Shown: piece by piece, positions 1 through 16,179 of the stretch
Position numbering within the stretch: the stretch's first letter is position 1
Layout: every line of letters begins with the position of its first letter
NCBI GenBank assembly: GCA_003152075.1
Contig: PLZG01000072.1
Location: forward strand, 1-62,652
Source of the DNA: a candidate division FCPU426 bacterium
GTDB lineage: Bacteria; Oederibacteriota; Muellerivitia; Muellerivitales; Muellerivitaceae
Reading direction: 5' to 3'
DNA length: 62,652 nucleotides
Program-made: the position numbers and the translations under genes
Notes under the pieces: model-generated
What the model was told of the DNA's origin: nothing
Databases searched by the model: none
What the model saw: the letters and a program-made list of their open reading frames with translations, nothing else

Positions 1-531
1 GTGCTGGGCGTCTGGTCCAGCTCCCAAACCTCGCTGTTGTTGAAGTCCGCCACATAAAGCCGGGTTCCCTGCTTCACAATGCCCCGCAGCGAGGAACCAA
101 AGGACGTTGATGTGATCGTCTTCACCAGGCTGTAATTGGACGCCGCCGAGAAAATTTCTATTTGACCCGGGCCAGCCTCGCCTACATAGAGATCCCCATT
201 CGTGTCAAAGCACACCCCCAGTGGCAGCCCCCCGGTTGACAGATTAGTATTAGTTGAAGAACTAATTTCGGTCAGTTGCACATAGTTCCCCCCCGCGTGT
301 CCAACGGCCAGGGTGGTTCCAGCGTTATTCACCGCAACGGCGTAGGGATTGGAAAGAGTGGAGAAAGTTTTTGTCCCAGCGGACATGCCGGGTAATTGAA
401 GCGTTTGGATCTGGTTGTTCGAGTTATCCGCCACAAATAAGGTGGACCCGCTAATGGCCAGCCCCGCGACCAAATTGAAGTTGCCCGCGCTTCCCGCCGT
501 CGCGGTGGCCACGACCAAACAACAATTCGGG
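1..531. repeat. Copy B of 1,716-nt-offset direct repeat (propeller 5)
   Basis: Aligns base for base with 1717-2247 at a constant offset of 1,716 nt (572 codons) with no indels seen. Only scattered substitutions separate the two copies, many at third codon positions. The copy is cut by the window edge, so its full extent is unknown. Confidence 0.9.
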
Positions 532-3500
532 GTGCTGATGGAAGTAGGCGTGTTCGTAGGGCTATTTGTTGGAGTCATCGTGGGAGAGTTGGTGGGTGTC
601 TTTGTAACGGTTAGAGTGAAAGTATTCGTTGGAGTTATTGTTTTGGCCGGAGTTTTCGTGGGTGTATTCGTCGGCGTCCTGGAAATTGTTGCTGTAAAGG
701 TTTTAGTTAAAGTGGAAGTTTTCGTGGGTGTATTGGTGATTGTGGGAGTTTTGGTTTTGGTTGATGTAAATGTTTTAGTCGGGGTTTTGGTAATGGTTGA
801 AGTATTTGTCTTTGTAAAGGTAGCGGTAGAAGTATTAGTTTTCGTGGGAGTAAAAGTTTTGGTCGGCGTATTGGTAATCGTGGGAGTAAACGTCCTCGTA
901 AAGGTTTTTGTAAACGTATTGGTGAAAGTAGGCGTGTTCGTTCTTGTAATGGTTGGAGTATTCGTGGGGCTATTGGTGGCCGTGGTGGTAAAGCTATTGG
1001 TCATCGTGGGGGTATTGGTGGGCGTATTGGTTGCGGTATTCGTAAAGCTCGGCGTTTTTGTCGGCGTTATCGTGGGAGAGTTGGTGGCCGTCGTGGTAAA
1101 GCTATTGGTCATCGTGGGGGTATTGGTGGGAGTCAGGGTCGGGGTATCGGTGGGCGTATTGGTTGCGGTATTCGTAAAGCTCAGCGTATTTGTCGGCGTT
1201 ATCGTGGGAGAGTTGGTTGCCGTCGTGGTAAAGCTATTGGTTATCGTAGGTGTATCGGTGGGTGTCAGGGTCGGGGTATCGGTGGGCGTATTGGTGGCAG
1301 TCGGCGTGAAGGTATTGGTGTGGGTAAGGGTCGGTGTTTTTGTAAAGGTAAAGGTCATCGTCGGGGTAATGGTGGGCGTATTGGTCGGTGTGTTAGTCGC
1401 CGATTTGGTTGAGGTAGGAGTGGCTATTCCACCGCAGGGGGCGATTTGGGCGATCTGGTAGGGCAACGTGGGCGACCCGGCGTAAATGTTTCCTTGCGAA
1501 TCCACCGCTACTCCCTGCGGGTTAAATCCTGTCGACATGCCACAAGGATGGTCGAGTATAAACAGTGAATCTGCCGCCCCTTGGGCTTTATATTCCACCA
1601 CCGAATTAGTGCCCGTCGACGCCACATAAAGATTCAAGGAGCCGTCCATGGACAGCTGGCTGGGATTCCCGATATTTCCCCCATTGATCACCGCCTGGGG
1701 CGCGCTGAAGTTATAGGTGCTGGGCGTCTGGTCCAGCTCCCAAACCTCGCTGTTGTTGAAGTCCGCCACATAAAGCCGGGTTCCCTGCTTCACGATGCCC
1801 CTCAACGAGGAACCGAAGGACGCGGATGTGATCGTCTTCACCAGGCTGTAATTGGACGCCGCGGCGAAAACCTCGATTTGACCCGGGCCCGCCTCGCCCA
1901 CATAAAGGTCCCCATTCGCGTCAAAGCATACCCCCAACGGCAGTCCCCCCGTGGACAGGTCCGTATTAGTGGAGGAACTCATTTCGGTCAGTTGCACGAA
2001 GTTACCTCCCGCGTGCCCGACAGCCAGGGTGGTTCCGGCGTTGTTCACCGCCACGGCGTAGGGATTGGAAAGAGTGAGGAAAGTCTTCGCCCCGGCGGTC
2101 AGGCCGGGCAATTGAACCTCTTGGATCCGGTTATTGACGTTATCGGCCACGAATAAAGTGGAGCCGTAGATCGCCAACCCGCCCACCACGTTGAAGTTGC
2201 CGGCCGAACCCGCCGTCGCGGTGGCCAGGACCAAGCAGCAATTCTGGGTCGGCGTATTCGTCACCGTATTCGTATAGGAATTAGTGGGGGTCGGGGTTAG
2301 CGTGTTCGTGAAGCTGGACGTATTGGTCGGCGTCATCGTGATGGAGTTGGTGGGGCTATCCGTGTCGGTGGGGGTGTCAGTCGGGGTATCCGTGGGGCTG
2401 TTGCTGGGCGTTGGCGTGAAGGTCGCGGTAAAGGTCGGCGTAAAGCTGTCGGTGAAAGTGCTCGTGTTGGTATTGGTAACCGTTGGGCTGTCCGTGGGGC
2501 TATCGGTGGCGGTGTTCGTGAAAGTGAAGCTATTGGTGGAGGTCGGCGTGGGGCTGTTGCTGGGTGTTGGCGTAACCGTGGCGGTAAAGGTCGGTGTAAA
2601 GCTGTTGGTGAAGGTCGGACTATTGGTCGGGGTGGCCGTCGGGGGGCAAATGGAAGTGTAGAGGGAGATGTTGATGAGGTTATTGGGTCCGGAACCTGTC
2701 ATGTCGGGCCAGCCGCCGTAAGCTTGGGTCTTTTGGACATAACTGCCAACACTTCCACCGCCATAGACCAGATAGCCATTGTCATACTGCGCGGCCAGCC
2801 AATAGACCTTCGCCGACACGTTTTGGGCCGGGATGGCGATGGCGTTCCATCCGTTCGTGACGATTTGGCTTCCCGATTGCGCCAATAGGGTCGTGATATG
2901 GCCGCTGGAATCCGAATCATAGAGCGCGACGTTGGCGTGGGTGGTTCCTGAGGTGTTGATATAGAAATCAATGGTGGAAACGGTCCCGGGGGAGGTAAAG
3001 GTGACCGAGGCGGCGGTCAGGAATCCGCTGGGGAGATTAGAGGCCTCAACGTTGGTATCCCCGTAAACACACACGGGGGTAAAGGTGGGGGTAAAGGACA
3101 AGGGGTTGGGGCTGTTGGTCGGGCTAATCGTGGGACTATTCGTTGGGGAATTAGTGATGCTGGGGGTTATAGTCGGGGTAAAGGTATTAGTGGAAGCATT
3201 GGTTGGCAGGGGGGTAAAAGTCGCGCAAGGCGGAATGATTCCGACCAAGTAAGGACTGGCGGTAGAACCGCCATAAATATTTCCTTGGGAATCCACGGCT
3301 ATACCCTGGGGATTAGTTGAGAAACCACATTTGTGGTCCATGACAAAAGGAGCACCCGGCGCGGATTGGGCGTGATAGACGATCAAAGAAGAGGCGCCCG
3401 TGGAAGCGACATAAAGGTTTTTCGCGGGGTCCATGGATAGCTCGGTCGGATTTGACAACGATCCCCCGCTGGCCACCACTTGGGGCGTGCCAAAAGTATA

Positions 3501-6500
3501 AGAACCCGTCTCATCCAACTCGTAAATAACGTTATTGGAAAAATCGGCCACATAGAGTCGATTTCCATTTTTCACGATCCCCCTGAGGGATGCGCTGAAA
3601 AGGACGGAAGTAATCGCCATCGGAGCCCCATAACTAGTTCCGTTCCAAGGGAAAATTTCCACCTCACCCGGGGACTGTTCCGCCACATAAACGTCAAAAT
3701 TACTGTCGACGGCCACGCCCATGGCCAAGCCCGCGGTTGATTTGCCGGCGAGTACGGAACCCGTACTGTCGAGTTTTTCAAAGAAATTAGCGCCCGACGA
3801 CCCGGCATAGAGGTACCCGCTTGAATCCGTCGCCAACGAGTAAGGTACGCCAAAGGAAAAATATCCCCCCGGCACAGGCGCCAAGCTCGGAATTTGGAGT
3901 TCTTGAATCTTGCTGTTCCCGGCGTCGGCCACGTAGAGGATATTGCCGCTGATGGCCAAACCGCCCACGATGTTGAAGTTCCCGCCAGGGCCCGCCGTGG
4001 CGGTCGCGGCAACCTGACAGCAAGTCGTGGAAGTCGCCGTGGGGGTAATGGTGGGAGTTACGGTCGGGGTGGGCGTGAGGCTATTGGTGTAGGTAAAGGT
4101 CGGGGTAATGGTTGGTGTATTCGTTATCGTGAGAGTGGGCGTGAGGGTTGGAACTCCAGTGGGGCACAGGCCAAATTTGTCCACCTGGGAATTCCCCAGG
4201 TCCGCCACGTACATGGACCCGTTCCCGAAAGCGATCCCCTCGGTTCCGTTGAAGGCTGGGCTCCCACTGGAAAAATTGCCTTGGAGGCCCCCGCTCGCGG
4301 TAAAGATACCCACCTCGCCGAATCCATCCGACACATAGACCAGGCTATTGGGACCGACCGCGATGAATTCGGCTGAAACGAGGTTACTGCCTTGGGTCGC
4401 GTCCCATTGGGCGATCTGTTTTCCGGTGGTGGGGTTGAAGACTTGAACCAATCCCGTGCCATAATCCGCCACATAGGCGTTTCCGGAGCTATCCATAGCT
4501 ACTCCCACAGGCTCCTCAAAATCACCAATTAAAGTCGTGGCGCTAGTGGTGCCCGCGATATTCTGTAATATCGGTCCCGTTGCCTGGCCGAATACTTCCA
4601 CCCTTTGGTTCACCTGGTCCACCACCACCACCGTCGTGGCGGCGTTGTTCACCGCGATCCCCGCGGGGGCCAGGAATTGCCCGACCAAGCTGCCGCCGGC
4701 AACGCCATACATCGTTCCCCAATTCCCGACCAAGCTGCCGCTGGTATTAAACACATCGACCTGATTATTTAACATGTCGGTCACATAAATGAGGTTGCCC
4801 CCGCCGACCGCGACTCCCATCGGTTGCCCCAACAGACCCGCCCCGATGGGGGTCCGGGGACCACCGGCGGCATTGAAGACATCCAGCTGGTTCGTGGAAT
4901 CATCGGCCACGTAAGCGTTCCCCGAGTTATCCAAGGCGACCCCATAGGGTTGGGCCGCAGGCAAGAAACCTGTTTGGGTGCAGGCAATGACCGTCGGCGT
5001 CACGGAAGGTGTCGCGGTGGGGGTCAGGGGAAAGGGATTGAAATAAATCATGACCCGGTTGCGGTTCGACTCCACCACGTAGAGGTTATCCGCGTCGTCG
5101 AAGGTTTCCGAATAGGAGAGGGGTCCGTAGTCCTGTAATTTACCGATGGGGGTGTCTCCCAGCCTAGGGTTCGCGAAAATCACCGGGAACCGGAAGCCCC
5201 CTTGGCCGTTCATGCCCACCACCATCCGGCTGTCATCCGAGTTGAAAGCGGGTTCGAAAGGCGCGTTCATCGCTTCCCCGTTGGAAGGGATATTGCCGTT
5301 CAAGGCGTTGAACGAAGTCCTGCCGAAAAGGCCGTCGGGGGGTATCCCGGGGTTCCCAAATTGGACCACACCGGTGGAATTGGCCAGGGCCGCCGCGGCC
5401 GCCAGGGTGCCCGCATCCCAACGCAACATCCGGCCATTGCCTTGGGTTTCCAGGGAATAATCCGAGACAAAAAGGTCCCCATTGTGGTCCAACACCACCG
5501 CCCCCGGCACGTTCAGGACATAGCGCGTCACCGTTCCCCCGGTGCAGCCGCATCCGCCGGGCCCGGCGTAGGGCGTGTAGGTTCCGCTGCCGTCGCAGCC
5601 CGTGGCGGTGGCGTTCGACTGGCCCAGGATGATATCCACCATGGGACTGGTGAGGGGATTGCGGATACGGAAGATCCGGCTGTTGATCGTATCAGTCGCC
5701 CAAAGGTAAGTCCCCGTCGGATCGACCGCGATGCCATCCACGCGGGTATTAAAGCTCACGGTCCCCCCTCCCAGGAGGGGAAGGGTCGTGGGAAGGATCT
5801 GGCCGGCGGGCTTGGCGCTGGTAAGCGGCAGGTTGAATATTTCGATCGTGTTCCCCCCATGAACGGCGAACAAATGGCCCATCCGGTCACTCTTGATGCG
5901 TCCATAGGAATTTCCGACGGAGAAATGGGGCTGACTGGCGCCGGCGTATCCGGTCTCGGGATTGCCGTTGGTCAGGCCCGAGGGGCCTCCCGCGGGCATG
6001 TCCCAATAATGAAGCCGGAGATGGTCCCCCACGATGACCTGGGTGACGGCTCCGGGACCCGGCACGACGGCCACCGCCACGCCTCCGGGCGACGCGAAAC
6101 CGACATCGCCGTAAAAATTGCCCATATAGAATTGGTCCGGGTTATATATCTGGAGGTCCGCGTCACGGGCGAACCCCGGCGTGGGCCCGGGGATGGGGGC
6201 CGGATAACGCCAAATGTCGGCGACGCCCTCATTGGGAACGGCATAGACATTTCCCGACTTGTCCACACCCACCCCGCCCGTGGGATTGCAGACTAGAAAG
6301 GTATGGGTGGTGTCGAGGCCGCTGCCGTCGGTGAAGGTCATGTTCTTGTCCCCCACCACGACCCCGGGGTTCACCACCGTTCCCGTACCCCCGGCACAGG
6401 CGTTGCCGACGGTCCCATTACTGGGGAGGTCGTGGCCCAAAACCTTGATCGCCGTCACGGCGGGAGCATCGGTGGGGTTGGGGGCCAACGAATAATCAAA

Positions 6501-7748
6501 ATGAAGAAGGACCAATTGATTATTCGTAAAGTCCGTCACCCAAAGGCCTTCCGTGACACCCGCGGTGTCCGGCGCGTCCCATTCCAGGCCGATGGCTGTA
6601 CCCACATATTGGTGGTAGGACAAAACATAGGGTTGTCCGTTGGTGTAAATGGGTTGGCCGCCGGTCGAATAGGAAGTCGGCCGGAAAACCAGGACCGGGC
6701 CCACCCCCACATAAACGTTCCCTTGGGCATCCACCCGCACCGAGTTGGCCGAGCCCACCGCGCACTGGGGACCCAAACCATGCCCGTCATTGGAGGTGAG
6801 ATCGATTTGTCCTAAAACCACATCGGCGTTCTGCTTGGGAATATTGTTATTGGCGGGATCGGTGGGAAATCGCACCACCCGATTGTTGGTGCAATCGGCC
6901 ACCCATAAATTTCCCCAAGCATCGATGGCCACCCCGGCCCCGCCCGCGGCTCCTTGAAAAAACCCGAGGGATGATCCGAGGGGCGAGTCGATCGGGTGAG
7001 GCGGGAGGCCCCCGTAAAAGAGGCCGTTGAAACTATTGGCGGTGGGCGCGGTTTGATTGTACCAATAGGAACTAAAATCCGGTTGTCCCCAAACGTGGGA
7101 AGCGGCTTGCCCGCTCGCGATGGGCGCGTCATACCGAAGGACCCGGTTGTTGTAATAATCGGGAACATAAAGGTTACCTTGGGGGTCAACTGCCATGCTC
7201 GCGGTGGATCCACCCTCGATCGAATGTTGGAAGAACCACATGCTGCCCAAGGTGTAAGCGTTGGGCGCGGGCCAGATTGGAAAGTTTTGCCAGTTCGAAT
7301 CCCCATTGTCACCCGAGTGGTTGAAGTCCTGTTGGCCCAGGACAATCTGGGCCCCTGTTCCGACCCCTTTTCCCGAGGGTAAAGTAGCGAGATTGACCCC
7401 CATAATCCGGTTGTTGCCCACGTCCCAGCTATAGAGAATATTATTTTTCATGTCACAAACCGAGCCGCTGGCCCCCCCGATCCTGAAGGCCACCGGTTCG
7501 CCGGGCGCGAGGCCCCCCTGGGCGAAAGCGGAATTATGGAATACATTTCCGGGAGGCGTGCCGTCCGATTGACCTAAAATCCTATCAGCCCAAAGGTCGC
7601 CGGGGGTTTCCCTTGGGACCGGCGTGCTTGGGCCCGGGGTTGGCGGCTGGGCGCTTAAAAGCCCTGGAAAAGGAAATAGAAGGGCGGCAAAGAGAACCGC
7701 CCTTCGCCAGCCATACCCTCTTCCCGATATACCTGAACAAAGGTTCAT
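1..7748 (-). CDS. Giant exported multi-propeller (NHL-type) protein with Thr-Pro linkers, partial
   Basis: An uninterrupted reading frame of 2,582 codons starts at ATG 7748 and leaves the left edge without a stop. I checked the frame at ten points from 7748 to 51 and it stays constant. The N-terminus is a signal peptide (Arg-Arg, hydrophobic AVLFAALLF, cleavage near SAQ). Residues about 40-910 are irregular NHL-like repeats with recurring LGQ and NLYV/VADxxNNR motifs. Residues about 920-1195 are a second propeller block, followed by a short TPT linker. A third propeller lies at 1243-1503, a jelly-roll-like module at about 1558-1700, a fourth propeller at 1837-2104 and a fifth from 2408. TPT-rich linkers of about 45, 54, 135 and 300 residues separate them. 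NHL propellers usually bind ligands or proteins; no catalytic residues are visible. Cell-surface or secreted location is inferred. A shared ECF-type promoter lies just upstream. The C-terminus, probably a sorting domain as in the protein at 10984-12234, is outside the window. Confidence 0.85.
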   Translation of the reverse strand, partial: MNLCSGISGRGYGWRRAVLFAALLFPFPGLLSAQPPTPGPSTPVPRETPGDLWADRILGQSDGTPPGNVFHNSAFAQGGLAPGEPVAFRIGGASGSVCDMKNNILYSWDVGNNRIMGVNLATLPSGKGVGTGAQIVLGQQDFNHSGDNGDSNWQNFPIWPAPNAYTLGSMWFFQHSIEGGSTASMAVDPQGNLYVPDYYNNRVLRYDAPIASGQAASHVWGQPDFSSYWYNQTAPTANSFNGLFYGGLPPHPIDSPLGSSLGFFQGAAGGAGVAIDAWGNLWVADCTNNRVVRFPTDPANNNIPKQNADVVLGQIDLTSNDGHGLGPQCAVGSANSVRVDAQGNVYVGVGPVLVFRPTSYSTGGQPIYTNGQPYVLSYHQYVGTAIGLEWDAPDTAGVTEGLWVTDFTNNQLVLLHFDYSLAPNPTDAPAVTAIKVLGHDLPSNGTVGNACAGGTGTVVNPGVVVGDKNMTFTDGSGLDTTHTFLVCNPTGGVGVDKSGNVYAVPNEGVADIWRYPAPIPGPTPGFARDADLQIYNPDQFYMGNFYGDVGFASPGGVAVAVVPGPGAVTQVIVGDHLRLHYWDMPAGGPSGLTNGNPETGYAGASQPHFSVGNSYGRIKSDRMGHLFAVHGGNTIEIFNLPLTSAKPAGQILPTTLPLLGGGTVSFNTRVDGIAVDPTGTYLWATDTINSRIFRIRNPLTSPMVDIILGQSNATATGCDGSGTYTPYAGPGGCGCTGGTVTRYVLNVPGAVVLDHNGDLFVSDYSLETQGNGRMLRWDAGTLAAAAALANSTGVVQFGNPGIPPDGLFGRTSFNALNGNIPSNGEAMNAPFEPAFNSDDSRMVVGMNGQGGFRFPVIFANPRLGDTPIGKLQDYGPLSYSETFDDADNLYVVESNRNRVMIYFNPFPLTPTATPSVTPTVIACTQTGFLPAAQPYGVALDNSGNAYVADDSTNQLDVFNAAGGPRTPIGAGLLGQPMGVAVGGGNLIYVTDMLNNQVDVFNTSGSLVGNWGTMYGVAGGSLVGQFLAPAGIAVNNAATTVVVVDQVNQRVEVFGQATGPILQNIAGTTSATTLIGDFEEPVGVAMDSSGNAYVADYGTGLVQVFNPTTGKQIAQWDATQGSNLVSAEFIAVGPNSLVYVSDGFGEVGIFTASGGLQGNFSSGSPAFNGTEGIAFGNGSMYVADLGNSQVDKFGLCPTGVPTLTPTLTITNTPTITPTFTYTNSLTPTPTVTPTITPTATSTTCCQVAATATAGPGGNFNIVGGLAISGNILYVADAGNSKIQELQIPSLAPVPGGYFSFGVPYSLATDSSGYLYAGSSGANFFEKLDSTGSVLAGKSTAGLAMGVAVDSNFDVYVAEQSPGEVEIFPWNGTSYGAPMAITSVLFSASLRGIVKNGNRLYVADFSNNVIYELDETGSYTFGTPQVVASGGSLSNPTELSMDPAKNLYVASTGASSLIVYHAQSAPGAPFVMDHKCGFSTNPQGIAVDSQGNIYGGSTASPYLVGIIPPCATFTPLPTNASTNTFTPTITPSITNSPTNSPTISPTNSPNPLSFTPTFTPVCVYGDTNVEASNLPSGFLTAASVTFTSPGTVSTIDFYINTSGTTHANVALYDSDSSGHITTLLAQSGSQIVTNGWNAIAIPAQNVSAKVYWLAAQYDNGYLVYGGGSVGSYVQKTQAYGGWPDMTGSGPNNLINISLYTSICPPTATPTNSPTFTNSFTPTFTATVTPTPSNSPTPTSTNSFTFTNTATDSPTDSPTVTNTNTSTFTDSFTPTFTATFTPTPSNSPTDTPTDTPTDTDSPTNSITMTPTNTSSFTNTLTPTPTNSYTNTVTNTPTQNCCLVLATATAGSAGNFNVVGGLAIYGSTLFVADNVNNRIQEVQLPGLTAGAKTFLTLSNPYAVAVNNAGTTLAVGHAGGNFVQLTEMSSSTNTDLSTGGLPLGVCFDANGDLYVGEAGPGQIEVFAAASNYSLVKTITSASFGSSLRGIVKQGTRLYVADFNNSEVWELDQTPSTYNFSAPQAVINGGNIGNPSQLSMDGSLNLYVASTGTNSVVEYKAQGAADSLFILDHPCGMSTGFNPQGVAVDSQGNIYAGSPTLPYQIAQIAPCGGIATPTSTKSATNTPTNTPTITPTMTFTFTKTPTLTHTNTFTPTATNTPTDTPTLTPTDTPTITNSFTTTATNSPTITPTNTLSFTNTATNTPTDTPTLTPTNTPTMTNSFTTTATNSPTITPTKTPSFTNTATNTPTNTPTMTNSFTTTATNSPTNTPTITRTNTPTFTNTFTKTFTRTFTPTITNTPTKTFTPTKTNTSTATFTKTNTSTITKTPTKTFTSTKTKTPTITNTPTKTSTLTKTFTATISRTPTNTPTKTPAKTITPTNTFTLTVTKTPTNSPTMTPTNSPTNTPTSISTPNCCLVVATATAGSAGNFNLVAGLAISGSTLFVADNSNNQIQTLQLPGMSAGTKTFSTLSNPYAVAVNNAGTTLAVGHAGGNYVQLTEISSSTNTNLSTGGLPLGVCFDTNGDLYVGEAGPGQIEIFSAASNYSLVKTITSTSFGSSLRGIVKQGTRLYVADFNNSEVWELDQTPS
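535..1432 (-). repeat. Long TPTxT linker with 132-nt higher-order repeats
   Basis: About 300 codons of Thr-Pro-Thr-x-Thr type sequence, coding strand minus, inside the giant gene. A longer unit recurs in frame: the block starting at 1023 reappears at 1155 (132 nt, 44 codons), and the segment encoding NSFTTTATNSPT recurs three times between about 970 and 1250. The opposite strand reads as an artefactual Val-Gly-rich frame. Likely an extended, possibly glycosylated spacer between propellers. Confidence 0.85.
1717..2247. repeat. Copy A of 1,716-nt-offset direct repeat (propeller 4)
   Basis: Near-identical partner of 1-531. Both encode the same propeller segment ending at the Asn-Cys-Cys-Leu-Val motif that starts each propeller. 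Constant offset and frame indicate a recent tandem duplication or gene conversion inside the giant gene. The match probably extends left of 1717 toward 1437, but its partner there lies outside the window. Confidence 0.9.
2250..2645 (-). repeat. TPTxT linker 3 of giant protein
   Basis: About 130 codons of Thr/Pro/Ser/Asn-rich repeats between the jelly-roll-like module (to 2650) and propeller 4 (from 2240). It uses more Asp-Ser-Pro-Thr and Thr-Asp variants than linker 4, so the linkers have expanded independently. Confidence 0.8.
2650..3075 (-). other. Jelly-roll-like module within giant protein
   Basis: Residues about 1558-1700 of the giant protein, starting at a Cys after linker 2. The order is a hydrophobic beta strand, STIDFYINTSG, VALYDSDSSG, a W-N-A segment, KVYWLAAQYD and a closing CPP. 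The same order (xYxG/ALYxDNGG, VYWLAxxxxN, terminal C-P) appears in the small lipoproteins at 29235-29813 and 53437-54081. No function is known; a carbohydrate-binding-like beta-sandwich is a guess. Confidence 0.6.
3075..3235 (-). repeat. TPTxT linker 2 of giant protein
   Basis: About 54 codons of Thr-Pro/Ser-Pro repeats (TNSPT, SPTIS units) between propeller 3 and the jelly-roll-like module. Confidence 0.75.
4025..4160 (-). repeat. TPTxT linker 1 of giant protein
   Basis: About 45 codons of TPTxT sequence joining the second propeller block to propeller 3, which begins with the Cys-Cys-Gln motif near 4014-4022. Confidence 0.75.
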
Positions 7749-7800
7749 AGGATACTTTCAACCTTTTCCCTGTTTTCTTCAAAAGACGGGTTCTTCCGTC

Positions 7801-7830
7801 TACTAGTCGTAAACTTTCATCTTTTATTCC
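7801..7830 (-). promoter_or_regulatory. Candidate ECF-sigma promoter of the giant gene
   Basis: On the minus strand the site reads GGAATAAAA, 8 bp, TTTACGACTAGTA. The same two blocks with the same spacing occur upstream of the ECF sigma gene (9387-9416). A GGAAT-type -35 followed about 16 bp later by a CGAC-containing -10 fits the known layout of ECF promoters. The start codon at 7748 is 53 nt downstream. Confidence 0.7.
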
Positions 7831-7926
7831 CTAAGTTCTCAAAAATTTTAAAAATAAATGGGTCAATATAAGGGTGATTTTTAAACGCGGAAAGAAAACG
7901 GGGAGACCAGCTTTCACGATAATCTA

Positions 7927-8784
7927 TTACTGGATTTGGATCGTCTTACTTTGGACGGTAGAACCCGACCTGACTTCGATCTTGTAGTAGCCCGGCGTGG
8001 CGGCTAAGCCATCCGCTAATTTCCCATTCCACTCAAAATCCCAATTTCCGGGGGACAAGTTGCCCCGGTATAAACGGGTGATTTCCTTCCCCTGAGTATC
8101 CAACACGCGGACCGCCAGGAAACCTAATTGGGATTGGCCCACAATCACGGAAAGGTTGGAGAAGGTTTGAGGAGGGCTTAAATCCACGTTAATCGGGGTC
8201 ACCACACGCTGAACCGGATTAGCCACAGGCGCGGTGGCTTGAAGCACTTGCCGGGACGGCGGGGAAACGGAATTTACCGGTGGAATTCGGGACATCGCCC
8301 TATCTTGAGGATTTTCCGCCACTGGATGATTTGAATGATCCGTTCCAGTACTCGGAGGAACCTCCGCCATAGGTTGCCGGCTTTGAGTGGCAAGGAAGGG
8401 TTTGACTAAACTATCCTTGGAAAGCGAAAGAGAAGCTTCTGTCTTCGCCATAGCGGTTGAAGAGGGTTTCCACAAAGCCATTAAATGACGGACCGTTTGG
8501 GGAGAAAAGAAATGAGTTCGCCAACCCAACCCAAGGGTGGCCCCCACCACGAACATGGCAGGCCAAAACCAGGGTCCCAAACCGGTTTTGGGTGGCGAAG
8601 AAGATGGCGGAGGATCGGTCCAGCGGGGCTTCGGTTCTGGGAAACCGTACCGAAGATAGGCTTGTTTCGCTGTTTCCTCGAATTTCAACGCGGCCTCGTC
8701 CGAATTCAATAGAGTGTCGCTTAAGGCCTGTTGTTCGGCTTCAGTCAGGTCGTCCCTGAAAAATTTTTCAACGAGGTCAGGCAT
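7927..8784 (-). CDS. Anti-sigma-factor-like membrane protein with FlgD/Ig-like C-terminal domain
   Basis: A protein of 285 residues. Residues 1-45 form an acidic helical segment (VEKFFRDDLTEAEQQALSD) like the cytoplasmic part of anti-sigma factors, but without the zinc HxxxCxxC motif. A single membrane helix lies at about 73-92 (WFWPAMFVVGATLGLGW). Then follow a Ser/Pro-rich periplasmic stretch and, at 220-285, a FlgD/sorting-like beta domain (VRVLDTQGKEITRL, NWDFEWNGK, PGYYKIEVRSG). Its start overlaps the end of the sigma gene by 8 nt, the usual sigma/anti-sigma layout. I infer that it holds the sigma factor and senses an envelope signal; the binding itself is not shown by sequence. Confidence 0.7.
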   Translation of the reverse strand: MPDLVEKFFRDDLTEAEQQALSDTLLNSDEAALKFEETAKQAYLRYGFPEPKPRWTDPPPSSSPPKTGLGPWFWPAMFVVGATLGLGWRTHFFSPQTVRHLMALWKPSSTAMAKTEASLSLSKDSLVKPFLATQSRQPMAEVPPSTGTDHSNHPVAENPQDRAMSRIPPVNSVSPPSRQVLQATAPVANPVQRVVTPINVDLSPPQTFSNLSVIVGQSQLGFLAVRVLDTQGKEITRLYRGNLSPGNWDFEWNGKLADGLAATPGYYKIEVRSGSTVQSKTIQIQ

Positions 8785-9349
8785 GGGAGCCCTCTCTCAA
8801 AGCGCTTAAAACTAATTGGCGAAGGGCTTCCTTACAACGGGATAAACGGGACATGACGGTGCCAATGGGAATTTTCAGTGTTTCCGCGATAGCCGCGTAA
8901 CTCTTGCTCTCGTCATCCCTAAGCTTGATGAGGCTTTGACAAGGGTCGCCCAGAGTTTCACGCTGGGTTTCGATCAACTGCATTAACCGGTGTTTTTCGG
9001 TGTCTTCCTCTTTTCGAAAATCATGTTCGATGGAAGAGGGGCCTATCAGGTTTTCCAGTTCCTCCTCCACGCGGACAATCTGGCGTTGCCGCTGACGAAT
9101 CCGGTCGTAACAAAGATTCATGCAAATCCGGAAAAGCCAATGGAAAAGGCTGGAGCGAAATTCGAATTCATGAAGCTGCCGGAAGACAGCCAGGAAGGCT
9201 TCCTGGGTCACATCCTCCGCTTCCGAATCCCCATAACCCAAAAGGTAGTAACAAGCCTTGCAAAGCCGGTCGCGATAGGTCAGAAAAAAATATTTCTCCG
9301 CCGTTTCATCCTTTGCCAAAAGTTTTTGGACCAATTCCCGGTCTTCCAA
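8777..9349 (-). CDS. ECF-type RNA polymerase sigma factor
   Basis: Codes for 190 residues. Region 2 spans about 20-90 and includes the DSEAEDVTQEAFLAVF helix and the FHWLFRICMNLCYDRIR promoter-melting helix. Region 4 spans about 130-182 with an SYAAIAETLKIPIGTVMSRL helix-turn-helix. The length is usual for ECF factors. The chosen start is TTG at 9349, preceded by AAGGGG at 6 nt; no in-frame ATG exists upstream before a stop. It is translationally coupled to the anti-sigma-like gene. Its own upstream region carries the same promoter motif as the giant gene, which suggests autoregulation and control of the giant gene. The exact ECF group is not assigned. Confidence 0.92.
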   Translation of the reverse strand: MEDRELVQKLLAKDETAEKYFFLTYRDRLCKACYYLLGYGDSEAEDVTQEAFLAVFRQLHEFEFRSSLFHWLFRICMNLCYDRIRQRQRQIVRVEEELENLIGPSSIEHDFRKEEDTEKHRLMQLIETQRETLGDPCQSLIKLRDDESKSYAAIAETLKIPIGTVMSRLSRCKEALRQLVLSALREGSHA

Positions 9350-9386
9350 ATCGAACCCCTTCAGGACTTCAAGTGATCTTTCATTA

Positions 9387-9416
9387 TACTAGTCGTAAAA
9401 ATCGAAGTTTTATTCC
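9387..9416 (-). promoter_or_regulatory. Candidate ECF-sigma promoter of the sigma/anti-sigma pair
   Basis: Minus strand GGAATAAAA, 8 bp, TTTACGACTAGTA, identical in both blocks and in spacing to 7801-7830. It lies 38 nt upstream of the TTG start. A TATAAT sequence overlaps its 3' end (minus strand, about 9383-9388), so a housekeeping promoter could also start here. The leader contains an out-of-frame 7-codon ATG ORF (9383 down to 9360). Confidence 0.7.
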
Positions 9417-9482
9417 AAACGAGAACCGCAATATAAGCCGCGCTAGACTTCCGGGGGTAAAACCAGCGGTTTTCATGAGTCT

Positions 9483-10994
9483 TTAAGGATTGGGAACCTT
9501 GAATTTTTCCAGCCATTCACCAAAAGCTTTATCGGAAGGCCTTAATTCCGAAACTTTCTCAAAACATTGAAGCGCATAAGCTTTCTTACCCAATTTGTAA
9601 TACACATTTCCCATATCCCGCCAGGCCAGGGCGTTCTGGGGGTCTTGTTTGACGGCTTCCTGGTAAAGCCGGATGGATTCCGCGTAATTCCCCTGAGCCT
9701 CCATGGCTTCGCCCTGCGCCGTAAAATCGGGGGCTAGATTAAACCGGACGGTCAGGCTGTTTTCAGGCGCTTTCGGCGTGTCTGGATTGAGTGCCCCTCC
9801 CATCGGTTGATTCGGCGGGGAAAGGGTCGAAGAAGCATCATGATTGGCGTCTTTTTCCTTACCGGTGGGTTCCATTGAATTTATCGATCCCTTTGAAAGC
9901 GAATGGTCTTGTGTCGGGACTGAGGAATTTTCATTTAATTTTACTGGATCCTTGCGGTTGTTTTCTGGGTTGAGGTTCGACTTTTTTCCAGGCGATTTAT
10001 TGGGCAAGACAACGTCGCTGGATGGGCTTGGTGCCGAGGTCTGAAAAGGATAGATCAAGCTGAAATGATGGGTATCACCCAGGTCTCCATTGGGCAAATA
10101 AGCGTAATCCAGGATGAACCCCGCCAATTTCACCCCGCCGCCAAACGAAAAACCATCATAGGACATTCCTTGAAGACTAGTTTGGTATCCACCCCGAATA
10201 AAAAATCGTGATTGGTAAGAAAACTCAATGCCTGATTGAAGAAAGTTCAAGTTATTGATTTCGAGTGAATCCCCAAGGCTGACCAAAATCCTTGTGGAAG
10301 AATCCAGATTTTCGGTCCAGGAGGCCCCACTTCTGAGTGTGGAAACGGCCGGGCCACTCCATGTTCCCCATCCAGCATAAAGATAATCCACTCCTAATTT
10401 GAATTCCCGAAAAAGATTAAAAAGAATTCCAAAATCGGGTGAAAAATACGATATTGCGTTGCCGGCAATAATTTGTTGAGAATAGCGAAGGGACGCCCCC
10501 ACGGAAAAATCTTTCAAAAGATTTATCCCTCCACCGCCTTGAAAAACAAATCGATTGGCCCCGTAACTACTGATTAAAGTCCCGGCTTCGTCACGGCCTT
10601 CCAGGGTTCCGGCATCAAAATAAGTGGCGGCAAATCCAACCCCCGTAGATTCGTTCATCGGCAAACCCAAAAGGATGGTTTGTTGAAAATTCCCGGCCCA
10701 TCCAAAATCACCGTGGATACCTAATTCACCCCACTTCAAACCGCTCAAACCGGATGGATTAAATAAGAGGGCTGAAGAGTCGTCGGCGATTCCTACATAA
10801 GCGGATCCTAAGGCGGCTCCTCGAGCCGAAAAAGTAAAATGATCCAGGGGGTTATATTGGCCGAAGGAGGTCTGCGTGGTTTGAACGGATTGAGCCAAGA
10901 GCGAAATGGGGAATATTAATAAATAAAACAGCATTGAAGCTTTTATGAGCGGCGTTTTAAATGGGCTTGAATGCACAGACCCCTCAATGAACAA
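9483..10994 (-). CDS. PorV/PorQ-like outer-membrane barrel protein with C-terminal TPR repeats
   Basis: Encodes 503 residues. An N-terminal hydrophobic signal (ASMLFYLLIFPISLLAQS) leads into a barrel-like domain at about 45-325. It carries the family hallmark ARGAALGSAYVGIADDSSALLFNPSGL and alternating Gly/aromatic strands (FIRGGYQTSLQGMSYDGFSFGGGV). Residues about 325-415 are a Pro/Ser/Asn-rich linker, and 420-503 hold two TPR units (EAMEAQGNYAESIRLYQEAVKQDP and the next). PorV/PorQ proteins of the type IX secretion system act as outer-membrane shuttles for cargo with C-terminal signals; this protein belongs to that broad superfamily, but an actual type IX role is inference. The start overlaps the end of the upstream propeller gene by 11 nt, so the two are probably cotranscribed. 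Confidence 0.8.
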   Translation of the reverse strand: MFIEGSVHSSPFKTPLIKASMLFYLLIFPISLLAQSVQTTQTSFGQYNPLDHFTFSARGAALGSAYVGIADDSSALLFNPSGLSGLKWGELGIHGDFGWAGNFQQTILLGLPMNESTGVGFAATYFDAGTLEGRDEAGTLISSYGANRFVFQGGGGINLLKDFSVGASLRYSQQIIAGNAISYFSPDFGILFNLFREFKLGVDYLYAGWGTWSGPAVSTLRSGASWTENLDSSTRILVSLGDSLEINNLNFLQSGIEFSYQSRFFIRGGYQTSLQGMSYDGFSFGGGVKLAGFILDYAYLPNGDLGDTHHFSLIYPFQTSAPSPSSDVVLPNKSPGKKSNLNPENNRKDPVKLNENSSVPTQDHSLSKGSINSMEPTGKEKDANHDASSTLSPPNQPMGGALNPDTPKAPENSLTVRFNLAPDFTAQGEAMEAQGNYAESIRLYQEAVKQDPQNALAWRDMGNVYYKLGKKAYALQCFEKVSELRPSDKAFGEWLEKFKVPNP

Positions 10995-12234
10995 TGGCGA
11001 ATTTCTTGATTTTAAGGCTATCGATTAAGCCCGAATCGTACTCAAGAACCACTTTATAGTAATAAAGACCCGGAGCGGTTTCAGAGAGGTTTAAAGGAGT
11101 AATTTGAACACCAGCCAACTTTCGATCGTTTATTTCAGCAACCACTTCCCTGTTTTGGTTCCAAACCTTGATTTTCACTTTCCCCGATTGGGCCATGGAA
11201 TAACAAAAAGTTGCATGATCACCCCTGACAGGGGAGGGATAGATAAAGGCCCCACCTTCCTGGGGAGGGTTAGCCCCCTGATAAAAAGGTGTCGGCGTGG
11301 GATATGCGAACAATGGGCAAAAAGCTATTTTTACCGCTTCCCAAGGGCTAGCTCCACTAGGTCCAGTTCGTGTCTCATAAACATTTCCACTTCCATCCAC
11401 CGCCACTCCTTGGGGGAAAAGGTTCAAAGTGACGCATTCATGATTTAAGGAAAATAGTGTTGGACTCAACCCTGAGTTGGCGGTAAATACAGAAATTTTT
11501 CCGGCCCCAGGAGAGGCTACGTACAGGTTGCCCAAGCTGTCCATCGACATTTGACAGGGATTGGTAACCCAAGAACTGTCAATAACGGTTTGTGGCGCTC
11601 CAAAATTGTAAGGTCCATTTTCATCCATTTCAAAAACCTGGCTGTTGGTATAGTCAGCCACGTAAAGCCTGTTTCCCTGTTTCACAACGCCCCTTAAGGC
11701 CGTACTAAAAACGGGGGAGGTAATGGTCTGCGCCAGGTTGTAATTGGTACCGTTCAATTGGAATATCTGCACTTCTCCGGGGATTTGTTCAGCGACGTAA
11801 ATATCCCCATTCGTATCCACCGCCACACCCATAGCCAATCCTGATGTTGGGAGGTAAGCCGTTTGTGTTCCATTAGTGTCGAATTTTTGGACTACGCCGC
11901 CGCCGTAATAACCCACATACAAATTGCCCTGCGGATCCGTCGTTAACGCATAGGGATTAGTAAGTCCAGTGATAGCTCCCCCTGGCACCGACGTTAGGCT
12001 GGGTAGGTTGAATTTTTGAATCTGGTTGTTGTTAAAATCAGCCACAAATAAGGTTGCTCCGCTGATGGCCAATCCCGCGGTAACATTAAAATTTCCCCCC
12101 GGTCCACTGGTAACTGTCTGGGCCATTTGACAACAAATAGGTGTGAAGGTACTGGTGGGTGTGGCTTGGGCTGAAGCCCAATAGGGTAATCCGAGGAAAC
12201 TAAGAAAAAATGCCGGAAAAATTAACCTTTTCAT
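10984..12234 (-). CDS. Exported single-propeller NHL protein with C-terminal sorting/FlgD-like domain
   Basis: A protein of 416 residues. The signal peptide is at 1-22 (FFLSFLGLPYWASAQA). A short TPT sequence and the CCQMAQTVT motif follow, then one beta-propeller at about 45-310 with repeated VADFNNNQIQKF, NLYVGYYGGG and RLYVADYTNSQV blades. It is clearly paralogous to propellers 3-5 of the giant protein. Residues 325-416 are a FlgD/type-A-sorting-like domain: FIYPSPVRGDHATFCY, KVKIKVWNQNREVV, APGLYYYKVVLEYDSG and a final basic/hydrophobic strand. This is the single-copy form of the giant protein's repeating unit and predicts how that protein may end. The downstream barrel gene overlaps it. 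Confidence 0.82.
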   Translation of the reverse strand: MKRLIFPAFFLSFLGLPYWASAQATPTSTFTPICCQMAQTVTSGPGGNFNVTAGLAISGATLFVADFNNNQIQKFNLPSLTSVPGGAITGLTNPYALTTDPQGNLYVGYYGGGVVQKFDTNGTQTAYLPTSGLAMGVAVDTNGDIYVAEQIPGEVQIFQLNGTNYNLAQTITSPVFSTALRGVVKQGNRLYVADYTNSQVFEMDENGPYNFGAPQTVIDSSWVTNPCQMSMDSLGNLYVASPGAGKISVFTANSGLSPTLFSLNHECVTLNLFPQGVAVDGSGNVYETRTGPSGASPWEAVKIAFCPLFAYPTPTPFYQGANPPQEGGAFIYPSPVRGDHATFCYSMAQSGKVKIKVWNQNREVVAEINDRKLAGVQITPLNLSETAPGLYYYKVVLEYDSGLIDSLKIKKFAIVH

Positions 12235-12433
12235 GTGTAAATACCTGGTGTCGGGAATAGAAATTCAACAAAGGAAGGCATTAATAAACGATATGCCAAT
12301 GGAATTTTCAAGAAAAATGGAATGAAAGAATGGGGCGAAAGGAATAACCGGCCCTTTGCCTATAGAAATGGTAAGCAAAAGCAGGAAATTATTCGAAAAT
12401 TAAAGCCATTTTGGTTTTTATAAAAATAAAATC

Positions 12434-13681
12434 TTACATATTCCCAATAACCGCCGTAGTGAATTCGGAGCACTTAACTTCTTTCGCCCCTTCCATCTGC
12501 CGCGCGAAATCGTAAGTCACCACTTTCTGGGAAATGGTCTTTTCGATGGCTTTCACGATCATGTCCGCGGCTTCCTGCCAGCCCATGTACTCCAACATCA
12601 TGACCCCGGAGATAACCACCGATCCTGGATTGACCTTGTCCAGGTTGGCGTATTTGGGCGCGGTGCCGTGAGTGGCTTCAAAAATAGCGTGGCCGGAAAC
12701 ATAGTTGATGTTACCGCCGGGGGCGATTCCAATGCCCCCTACTTGGGCCGCCAGGGCGTCCGAGAGGTAGTCCCCGTTCAAGTTCAGGGTGGCGATTACG
12801 TCGAATTCCTCGGCGCGGGTGAGGACCTGTTGCAGGGTAATGTCGGCGATGGCGTCTTTCACCAATACCTGGCCCGCGGGTGGCTTGCCCCCGCAATCAT
12901 CCCAACCGATGGCCTTGCCTTGAAACTCCTTTTTCACCAGAGCGTAACCCCAATCCCGGAATGCGCCTTCGGTGAACTTCATAATGTTTCCCTTATGCAC
13001 AAAGGTCACGCTCTTGCGCTTATGTTTTATGGCGAATTCAAGCGCCGCGCGCACCAGCCGTTCGGTGCCTTCCCGGGAAACGGGCTTGATACCGATCCCA
13101 GAGGTCTGAGGGAACCGGATATTCTTTACCCCCATTTCCTCCTGTAGAAACTTAATGATTTTTTTCGCCTCGGGTGTCTCTGCCTGCCACTCGATGCCAG
13201 CGTAGATGTCTTCAGTGTTTTCCCGGAAGATAATCATATCCACTTTCTCGGGATGCTTAACGGGGGATGGCACGCCCTTGAAATAGCGAACGGGTCGCAG
13301 GCAAACATAAAGATCCAACATTTGGCGCAAAGCAACGTTAAGGGACCGGATGCCGCCTCCCACGGGAGTGGTCAAGGGACCCTTGATACCTACCAGATAT
13401 TCTTTAAAAGCCTCCACCGTGTCATCGGGAAGCCAGTTTTGAAATTTGTCAAAAGCGGTTTGTCCCGCGTAAACCTCGAACCAGGAGATTTTTTTCTTTC
13501 CTTTATAGGCCTTCTCCACCGCCGCGTCAAAAACCCGGACCGAAGCCCTCCAAATATCCGGCCCCGTTCCATCCCCCTCGATAAAGGGAAGAATGGGATT
13601 GTCGGGAACTTTCAAAACCCCGTTCTGGATCGTGATTTTTTCACCCTTGGGCGGTTTGACGTTTTGATAGCTATAGGACAC
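12434..13681 (-). CDS. icd: NADP-dependent isocitrate dehydrogenase
   Basis: Makes 2-oxoglutarate and NADPH from isocitrate in the TCA cycle. The 415-residue protein matches the E. coli type I enzyme along its length: [13 protein letters not shown] with the substrate-binding (and, in enterics, phosphorylated) Ser, [64 protein letters not shown] and [12 protein letters not shown]. The loop after the coenzyme region is slightly shorter than in E. coli. Its product feeds, or is made by, the 2-oxoacid:ferredoxin oxidoreductase at the right end. It stands alone, with 126 bp to its upstream neighbour. Confidence 0.96.
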
Positions 13682-15122: not shown

Positions 15123-15821
15123 TTAATTCTTCGAGATGGAGACGTTTTGGGATTCCAATTTAACAGCCGGTTTCTCAATGGCGGTCTTGAGCAGTTCAGG
15201 CTTTTCAGTGGCATGGCCCGTTCCCAAATGCTTCATTCTTTTTTTGCTATCCAACAGGTCCTTGCGGATTTGGGCCAGTTGATCGGCCAATTCCTGTTCC
15301 TCACCAAAAACCTCGATGGCTCTTTCCAAAAGCTTCAAGGTTTCCTGTTGGTAAGAAGCCTCTTTTTGGAGAATGGCCGAAAGTTCATGGGCGGTATTTT
15401 CTTCAGCGCCGCTCAAGTTCAAGGTGACGGGAATGCCGGTCAAATCAAAGAGCGTCTTGACTAGGGTTTGGTAATGCTTTTGGGCCATGGAAAGAAACTG
15501 CCAAACGGCCTTGATGGAATCTTCGTCGTCCTGCCCCACGTTAGCGGTGGCGCTGGCCAAGTGGATTACTCGGCGGTAGGAAACTTCCAGGATTTGGAAA
15601 AGGATAGCTGTCTTGCGCAGGGTGATCTTGCTGATATGCGTTTTGTTGTTCAGCATACCTTTGACTTCACGAACCTTGAACTCGCATTGCTCCAATAGTT
15701 CGCGATTCGCACGGGCATCCCGGGGACTAATCCGGAGGGCCCTTCCGGCCAAGTGCTGGACATCCTGGTGCAGGCGCTCAACGGTCTCAATAAGCTGGAA
15801 GAGGGAAAAATAGAAGTTCAT
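15123..15821 (-). CDS. Helical coiled-coil protein of unknown function
   Basis: The preferred start is ATG 15821, preceded by AGGAG at 8 nt; the frame can be extended to 15914 but that part has no supporting ribosome site. It gives 232 residues, almost entirely amphipathic helix (LIETVERLHQDVQHLAG, LKLLERAIEVFGEEQELADQLAQIRKDLLDSKKRMKHLG). There is no signal peptide or membrane segment. I do not recognise the family. Its place directly upstream of the PAS/AAA regulator suggests a partner or sensor role, but that is only positional. Confidence 0.65.
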   Translation of the reverse strand: MNFYFSLFQLIETVERLHQDVQHLAGRALRISPRDARANRELLEQCEFKVREVKGMLNNKTHISKITLRKTAILFQILEVSYRRVIHLASATANVGQDDEDSIKAVWQFLSMAQKHYQTLVKTLFDLTGIPVTLNLSGAEENTAHELSAILQKEASYQQETLKLLERAIEVFGEEQELADQLAQIRKDLLDSKKRMKHLGTGHATEKPELLKTAIEKPAVKLESQNVSISKN

Positions 15822-16179
15822 GATCTTGCTCCTGTTCTCTAAATTTAGGTTCTTAAATTGGGTGAATATTAGATTAATGGTTAAGTTTAAGGAGTATACC
15901 TCTTGTACCCTCATTTGAGTTACAAAAAATCAAAATTATCAAATAAACCCTTACATTTAAGGCTTTTTTAGTATTTTTAATGATAATCGATTACCTTTAT
16001 TCCTATCAAAATGAGTCATAATTGTCTAAAACATGTCAATATTTACACATTTTTTACATGGTTTTAGCCCCTTTTGAGGGTTTTTTTTGGCTTCTAACTC
16101 GATATCTTTCAGGCGCTTGCCTTTGACCCGTCCTTTTCCTGATGATGTCCCGGCTTAAATCCACTTTTCGAGGTGAACT
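15822..16179. other. Divergent intergenic region, AT-rich
   Basis: It separates the leftward coiled-coil gene from the rightward bcp gene and should hold both promoters. Visible structure is an imperfect inverted repeat AAAACATGT / ACATGGTTTT at about 16028-16064 and a short CCCT/AGGG hairpin followed by eight T's near 16070-16088. No gene is recognisable. Confidence 0.5.

Follow-up and report, generated by a model that had tools for sequence, protein, structure and literature searches.

The RpoE/RseA and SigW/RsiW pairs combine a sigma factor made of regions 2 and 4 only, an adjacent gene coding for a membrane protein and a promoter of their own located just upstream. In Clostridium thermocellum, many paralogous and self-activating SigI/RsgI pairs are present, and promoter variants mark the secreted-protein genes that belong to each of them (PMC6056542). 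The paralogous SigI factors of cellulolytic clostridia are told apart by the -35 element (PMC6056542). In Porphyromonas gingivalis, the PorXY-SigP system ties an ECF sigma factor to PorV-type secretion and to the signalling protein PorA (PMC7712824).

The locus described here lies in a window of 62,652 nucleotides, which is the whole stretch of DNA that was analysed, from a bacterium of the candidate phylum FCPU426. It shares with RpoE/RseA and SigW/RsiW a sigma factor with regions 2 and 4 only, an adjacent gene for a predicted membrane protein, a candidate promoter just upstream, a -35 element (GGAAT) close to GGAAC and, in some members, a CGTC-like -10 element (PMC8103513). In contrast to these pairs, the N-terminus of the membrane protein has no anti-sigma domain recognised by Pfam or NCBIfam, a FlgD-like Ig domain makes up the outer portion of this protein, and several paralogues with separate -10 elements appear to drive giant secreted proteins. 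Like SigI/RsgI, the locus seems to belong to a set of paralogous self-activating pairs with promoter variants for their own secreted proteins. SigI is, however, another type of sigma factor with a SigI-C domain and -35 specificity, whereas ECF factors with a constant -35 element are found here and specificity appears to sit in the -10 element. The link to PorV-type secretion is reminiscent of PorXY-SigP, although in P. gingivalis a two-component system activates one sigma factor, while here several putative sigma/anti-sigma pairs adjoin the secretion and cargo genes and a cargo-like domain is part of the putative anti-sigma factor itself. Unlike in FecI/FecR cell-surface signalling, Pfam gave no FecR match in the membrane protein and detected no TonB receptor in those genes of the modules to which it was applied. 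In open-licence papers, nothing closer than P. gingivalis was found for a FlgD-type anti-sigma factor or for a link between ECF factors and PorV secretion in the phylum, and the search of such papers gave no description of an ECF set with constant -35 and identity-bearing -10 elements.

The favoured reading, to which a probability of roughly 85% is assigned, is that two sites of the window are promoters of the sigma factor encoded at 8777-9349, and that this factor heads one of about seven modules whose specific -10 elements limit cross-talk. The promoter at 9387-9416 would drive the sigma/anti-sigma operon, resulting in self-activation, and the promoter at 7801-7830 would drive a giant exported gene. 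The membrane-bound anti-sigma factor would hold the sigma factor until its Ig domain senses a signal outside the cytoplasm, and the freed sigma factor would then transcribe its own operon and the genes of its secreted proteins. About seven such self-activating ECF/anti-sigma modules would act in parallel, with a common -35 element and module-specific -10 elements, and would control a PorV-like secretion set as well as giant proteins of the beta-propeller type. Owing to the -10 elements specific to its module, each sigma factor would activate its own gene and those of its secreted proteins, while cross-talk would stay limited.

Genes and two-part sites of the window

The sigma factor gene (8777..9349, minus strand) starts with TTG and codes for a protein of 190 aa. 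Pfam detected Sigma70_r2 at residues 22-89 (1.2e-13) and Sigma70_r4 at residues 138-178 (6.8e-07), and TIGR02937 was matched above its cut-off (1.1e-25). Regions 2 and 4 only, separated by a short linker, correspond to ECF group IV, and SigW is the closest relative of solved structure in the PDB. No SigI-C domain was matched by Pfam or NCBIfam, which gave ECF-type regions 2 and 4 only. The next gene (7927..8784, minus strand) shares 8 nt with the sigma gene and codes for 285 aa with a FlgD_ig match (2.3e-08). In its AlphaFold model, a short helical N-terminus is followed by a helix (73-92), a disordered linker and a confidently modelled Ig domain (212-284, pLDDT above 90); helix 73-92 is predicted to span the membrane. 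A gene with such a predicted helix adjoins and overlaps the sigma gene in the relatives as well. Neither Pfam nor NCBIfam recognised a known anti-sigma domain in this protein, its N-terminus included. Its probable role as the anti-sigma factor of the adjoining sigma factor is therefore deduced from position, conservation and architecture.

The three remaining genes are also located on the minus strand. The open reading frame at 3..7748 encodes at least 2582 aa of a giant exported NHL beta-propeller protein (NHL 1.1e-47) with T/P-rich linkers; since the window begins at base 1 of contig C111, the gene runs off the contig end. The gene at 9483..10994 codes for an outer-membrane protein with TPR repeats, which passes the PorV-family model NF033709 marginally (8.5e-26; 91.3 bits for a cut-off of 90), and a PorV/PorQ-family gene recurs beside most of the sigma relatives. 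The gene at 10984..12234 encodes a secreted NHL propeller (6e-15) with a C-terminal sorting-like domain. Its Por_Secre_tail match is weak (0.0025, below cut-off), and its AlphaFold model gave Foldseek matches to NHL propellers and PorZ.

An earlier note on this DNA had described the same two-part site twice on the minus strand, with differing spacers and at 38-53 nt from start codons. This was reproduced exactly. The motif GGAATAAAA-N8-TTTACGACTAGTA is present with 0 mismatches at 7801-7830(-) and at 9387-9416(-). The first copy lies 53 nt ahead of the giant ORF, which starts with ATG at 7748, and the second 38 nt ahead of the sigma ORF, which starts with TTG at 9349; the spacers are not alike (GATGAAAG vs. 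CTTCGATT). The candidate -35 elements (GGAATAAAA) cover 9408..9416 for the sigma gene and 7822..7830 for the giant gene, and the candidate -10 elements (CGACTAGTA) cover 9387..9395 and 7801..7809, respectively, all on the minus strand and all as exact matches. No third copy was found in the window at up to 3 mismatches, for which the chance expectation is none, and no further copy in the 4.10-Mb assembly at up to 2 mismatches. Raising the limit to 3 mismatches genome-wide yielded one extra match, C88:15429(+), which was dropped because it lies antisense within a small coding sequence and is probably due to chance.

A PWM was derived from the sites upstream of the sigma genes of 23 relatives, leaving out the window's own sites, and it ranked both window sites at the top with a score of 23.5 each. 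The next score in the window was 18.3, and the best one in 30 first-order Markov shuffles was 18.9. As stated before, a comparable site is absent ahead of 12234 and from the rest of the window. The site scoring 18.3, at 16003(-), was not included since the shuffles reach 18.9. This stretch (15974-16003, minus strand) reads GGAATAAAGGTAATCGATTATCATTA, lies about 60 nt ahead of ORF 15123-15914 and looks like the CATTATTTA class, within the range of the shuffles. Scans of the region 7500-12700 for housekeeping sigma-70 promoters and for terminators gave results no higher than shuffles.

Conservation and placement in the family

The sigma relatives comprise 24 genes, the window's own counted, from seven genomes of its family. 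At least six further relatives with 39-56% identity are encoded in the window's genome (G000), and more occur elsewhere in the family. Comparison of the twenty kb surrounding most of them revealed that the sigma and putative anti-sigma genes recur in the company of PorV-like genes and of genes for giant or propeller proteins. At one of the compared loci (L048, G002 C79), several short ORFs repeating RFIPARAGN and SPHVRGT were noticed at about 5200-7760, and they resemble a translated CRISPR array.

The hexamer GGAATA was found within 150 nt upstream of 23 of the 24 sigma genes, compared to 1.5 on average and at most 6 in shuffles and to 1/24 on the other strand. One of the 23 displays a GGAATA just 10 nt from the start together with a second one at the usual place, and the single sigma gene lacking it carries GGAAGA. 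While the -35 element is constant (GGAATA, usually followed by A), the -10 element differs between paralogues. The general ECF promoter consensus (AAC in the -35 and CGT in the -10 element) is not followed, as GGAATA stands in 23/24 and (A/T)CT forms the -10 core, with CGTC in the -10 element of some members only. The -35 element typical of the studied ECF factors is GGAAC, where GGAAT is found here. Of the two blocks described in the earlier note, GGAATA and an (A/T)CT core are conserved in the relatives; the TTTA at the start of the second block is common to both window sites, but not to the family. The functional -10 element of the window sites is thus probably about CGACTAGTA.

The relative of the same genus (G001, locus L043) has sites ahead of both the sigma and the giant gene, and CGTCTAGTA is found at both, versus CGACTAGTA in the window. 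Sites ahead of both genes also occur in G002 and G004, which represent two other genera and in which the [A/T]CT core is shifted by one base farther from the -35 element at both. The giant-gene site is retained at loci L043, L047 and L051. Together with the 23/24 count, these relatives support the previous proposal that the site is an ECF promoter and that the sigma factor at 8777-9349 would control itself and the giant gene.

The placement of the sites over the whole genome was also considered. The pattern GGAATAAA-N14,15-NCT gave 72 matches versus 32 for the reversed pattern. With gene starts taken from simple ORF calling and no gene finder, 14 of the 24 matches with an ACT core lay between genes and no more than 200 nt from a start, compared to 4/39 for other cores (Fisher p 9e-5), which fall mostly inside ORFs. 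The well-placed ACT-core matches are mostly located ahead of genes for ECF factors, exported T/P/S-rich proteins and lipoproteins. The motif is hence not scattered over the genome irrespective of start codons. Across eight genomes of the family, GGAATAAA-N14..16-CACTA was matched 27 times (reversed control: 2), and among 31 other genomes of the phylum 7 times (control: 13). Full-length relatives of the putative anti-sigma factor were present in 7/8 family genomes, and outside the family only partial matches were found, mostly to the Ig domain. Enrichment of the motif and the putative anti-sigma factor are thus confined to the same family limits.

Pairing of -10 elements and alternative explanations

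The larger picture, which the earlier note had missed, is that the window appears to hold one of about seven paralogous modules with a -10 element particular to each. In the window's genome, exported or lipoprotein genes located beside a paralogue tend to bear the -10 element of that paralogue. Five distinctive -10 elements are seen as such pairs, each counted twice: CGACTAGTA (the window), CATTATTTA, CCCACTAAC, CTCTAAG and CACTATA. A further pairing (CACTAGA/CACTGGA) is looser. The -10 elements of the targets matched that of their own sigma gene at 8.0 of 11 positions, compared to 5.64 when loci were permuted, and 10 of 20000 permutations reached the observed value (p ~0.0005); these counts take in a few automatic matches which are probably due to chance. 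The spacers matched at 3.1/10 positions versus 2.6/10 expected, which is no better than chance, so that the -10 pairing does not stem from a recent duplication of DNA. It is thus the -10 element, and not the spacer, that the sigma gene and the neighbouring exported gene have in common.

Several other loci of this genome carry related sites. L041 (G000 C3, 5236-19491) contains a more distant ECF factor (34% identity) at the head of a comparable module. Two large exported proteins, of Kelch or T/P-rich type, belong to this module, its sites are of the CGTCTA type, and the region upstream of the ECF gene nearly reaches the contig end. Lipoprotein-like genes whose products have T/P-rich linkers (L140, L143, L149, L153 and L154, at C8:7928, C33:3608, C89:8754, C93:3700 and C93:4704 of G000) have a CACTATA-type site in common and may together represent the regulon of the sigma factor at C89:6165.

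The most serious alternative is that the promoters are real and the paralogous sigma factors read each other's sites, forming one network. It is given clearly less credit than insulated modules, though a substantial share. The -35 GGAATA is identical in all paralogues, and pairing is loose in G002, G004 and G006, where targets resemble the sites of other sigma factors as well as those of their own. Moreover, a CGTCTAGTA site lies near the distant C3 sigma factor of G000, though the window sites read CGACTAGTA, which suggests that near-identical -10 elements can serve different sigma factors. Against a common network, the pairing in G000 reaches the maximum seen among the permutations, and the distinctive CATTATTTA, CTCTAAG and CCCACTAAC are each confined to one locus. 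A second alternative, in which the two-part motif is the operator of a separate DNA-binding regulator and no sigma promoter, is considered very unlikely: any conserved bipartite site could be an operator, but the motif lacks palindromic symmetry, its -35/-10 geometry, orientation and distance to the start are those of an ECF promoter, it stands ahead of the sigma gene itself in 23/24 relatives, and it is enriched only in the family carrying this sigma group. The least credible proposal is that the sigma promoter was recently duplicated and that the giant-gene site is a functionless remnant of this event. The presence of two exact copies 1.6 kb apart in one locus speaks for it, whereas the differing spacers and the retention of the giant-gene site in G001, G002 and G004 speak against it.

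Based on these comparisons, we infer that the sigma factor at 8777-9349 reads the two window sites and that the paralogous modules are insulated by their -10 elements. The region of the sigma factor that might account for this was investigated by comparing the paralogues, with regions 2 and 4 assigned according to general knowledge. Region 4 shows almost no variation in its recognition helix, while a stretch of region 2 is variable, which is the pattern that a fixed -35 and a variable -10 element would lead one to expect. The sole sigma factor with EPRSTL in this stretch is the one with CATTATTTA promoters. Region 2 is the part which reads the -10 element, with a flipped -10 base recognised by the L3 loop (PMC8103513). 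Differences in the -10 element correlated with those in region 2 (r 0.50), but the partial correlation was 0.13 and was reached by 333 of 5000 permutations; the spacers, too, correlate with sigma protein distance. Co-variation was therefore rejected as direct evidence of specificity, as it is not separable from general relatedness, and is retained as a lead only.

Possible secretion link and significance

The Ig domain of the putative anti-sigma factor was compared by hhalign with the C-termini of the secreted proteins. A probability of 93.7% was obtained with the giant proteins and of only 5% with the small propellers, while the C-termini of giant and propeller proteins are related to each other (98.3%). 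With Foldseek, FlgD ranked first for this Ig domain and type IX cargo domains ranked lower. A frame of 1988 aa at C39 gave a partial SprA-like match, TIGR04189 being matched in four pieces, the best with 107 bits, below the cut-off of 200. Two open frames near 122 kb and 188 kb of G011 C40 (6372 and 10753 aa), very large even for the phylum, also terminate in FlgD-like domains.

In P. gingivalis, PorA attaches to PorV through a C-terminal domain of the cargo type and has an effect on signalling by SigP (PMC7712824). This precedent, the kinship of the Ig domain with the giant C-termini, the PorV-family protein and the partial SprA-like match make a cargo-mimicking anti-sigma factor conceivable. 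According to this idea, which is regarded as speculative and rather unlikely, the putative anti-sigma factor would sense the secretion state, its outer Ig domain imitating the C-terminal sorting domain of the secreted proteins and competing for the PorV-like protein of the module. Given the 5% obtained with the small propellers, the idea leans on the giant C-termini (93.7%) and on the Foldseek matches. If true, each module would gauge the export of its own giant protein and tune its sigma factor accordingly, which would represent a new way of coupling gene expression to protein export.

The modules described here would constitute a naturally occurring collection of ECF switches that work in parallel, several per genome, with a fixed -35 element and a -10 element that seemingly carries their identity. 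The avoidance of cross-talk by duplicated sigma factors becomes directly testable with such a set, which also provides candidate orthogonal promoter pairs. It further offers a first hypothesis on how an uncultivated phylum regulates its giant surface proteins.
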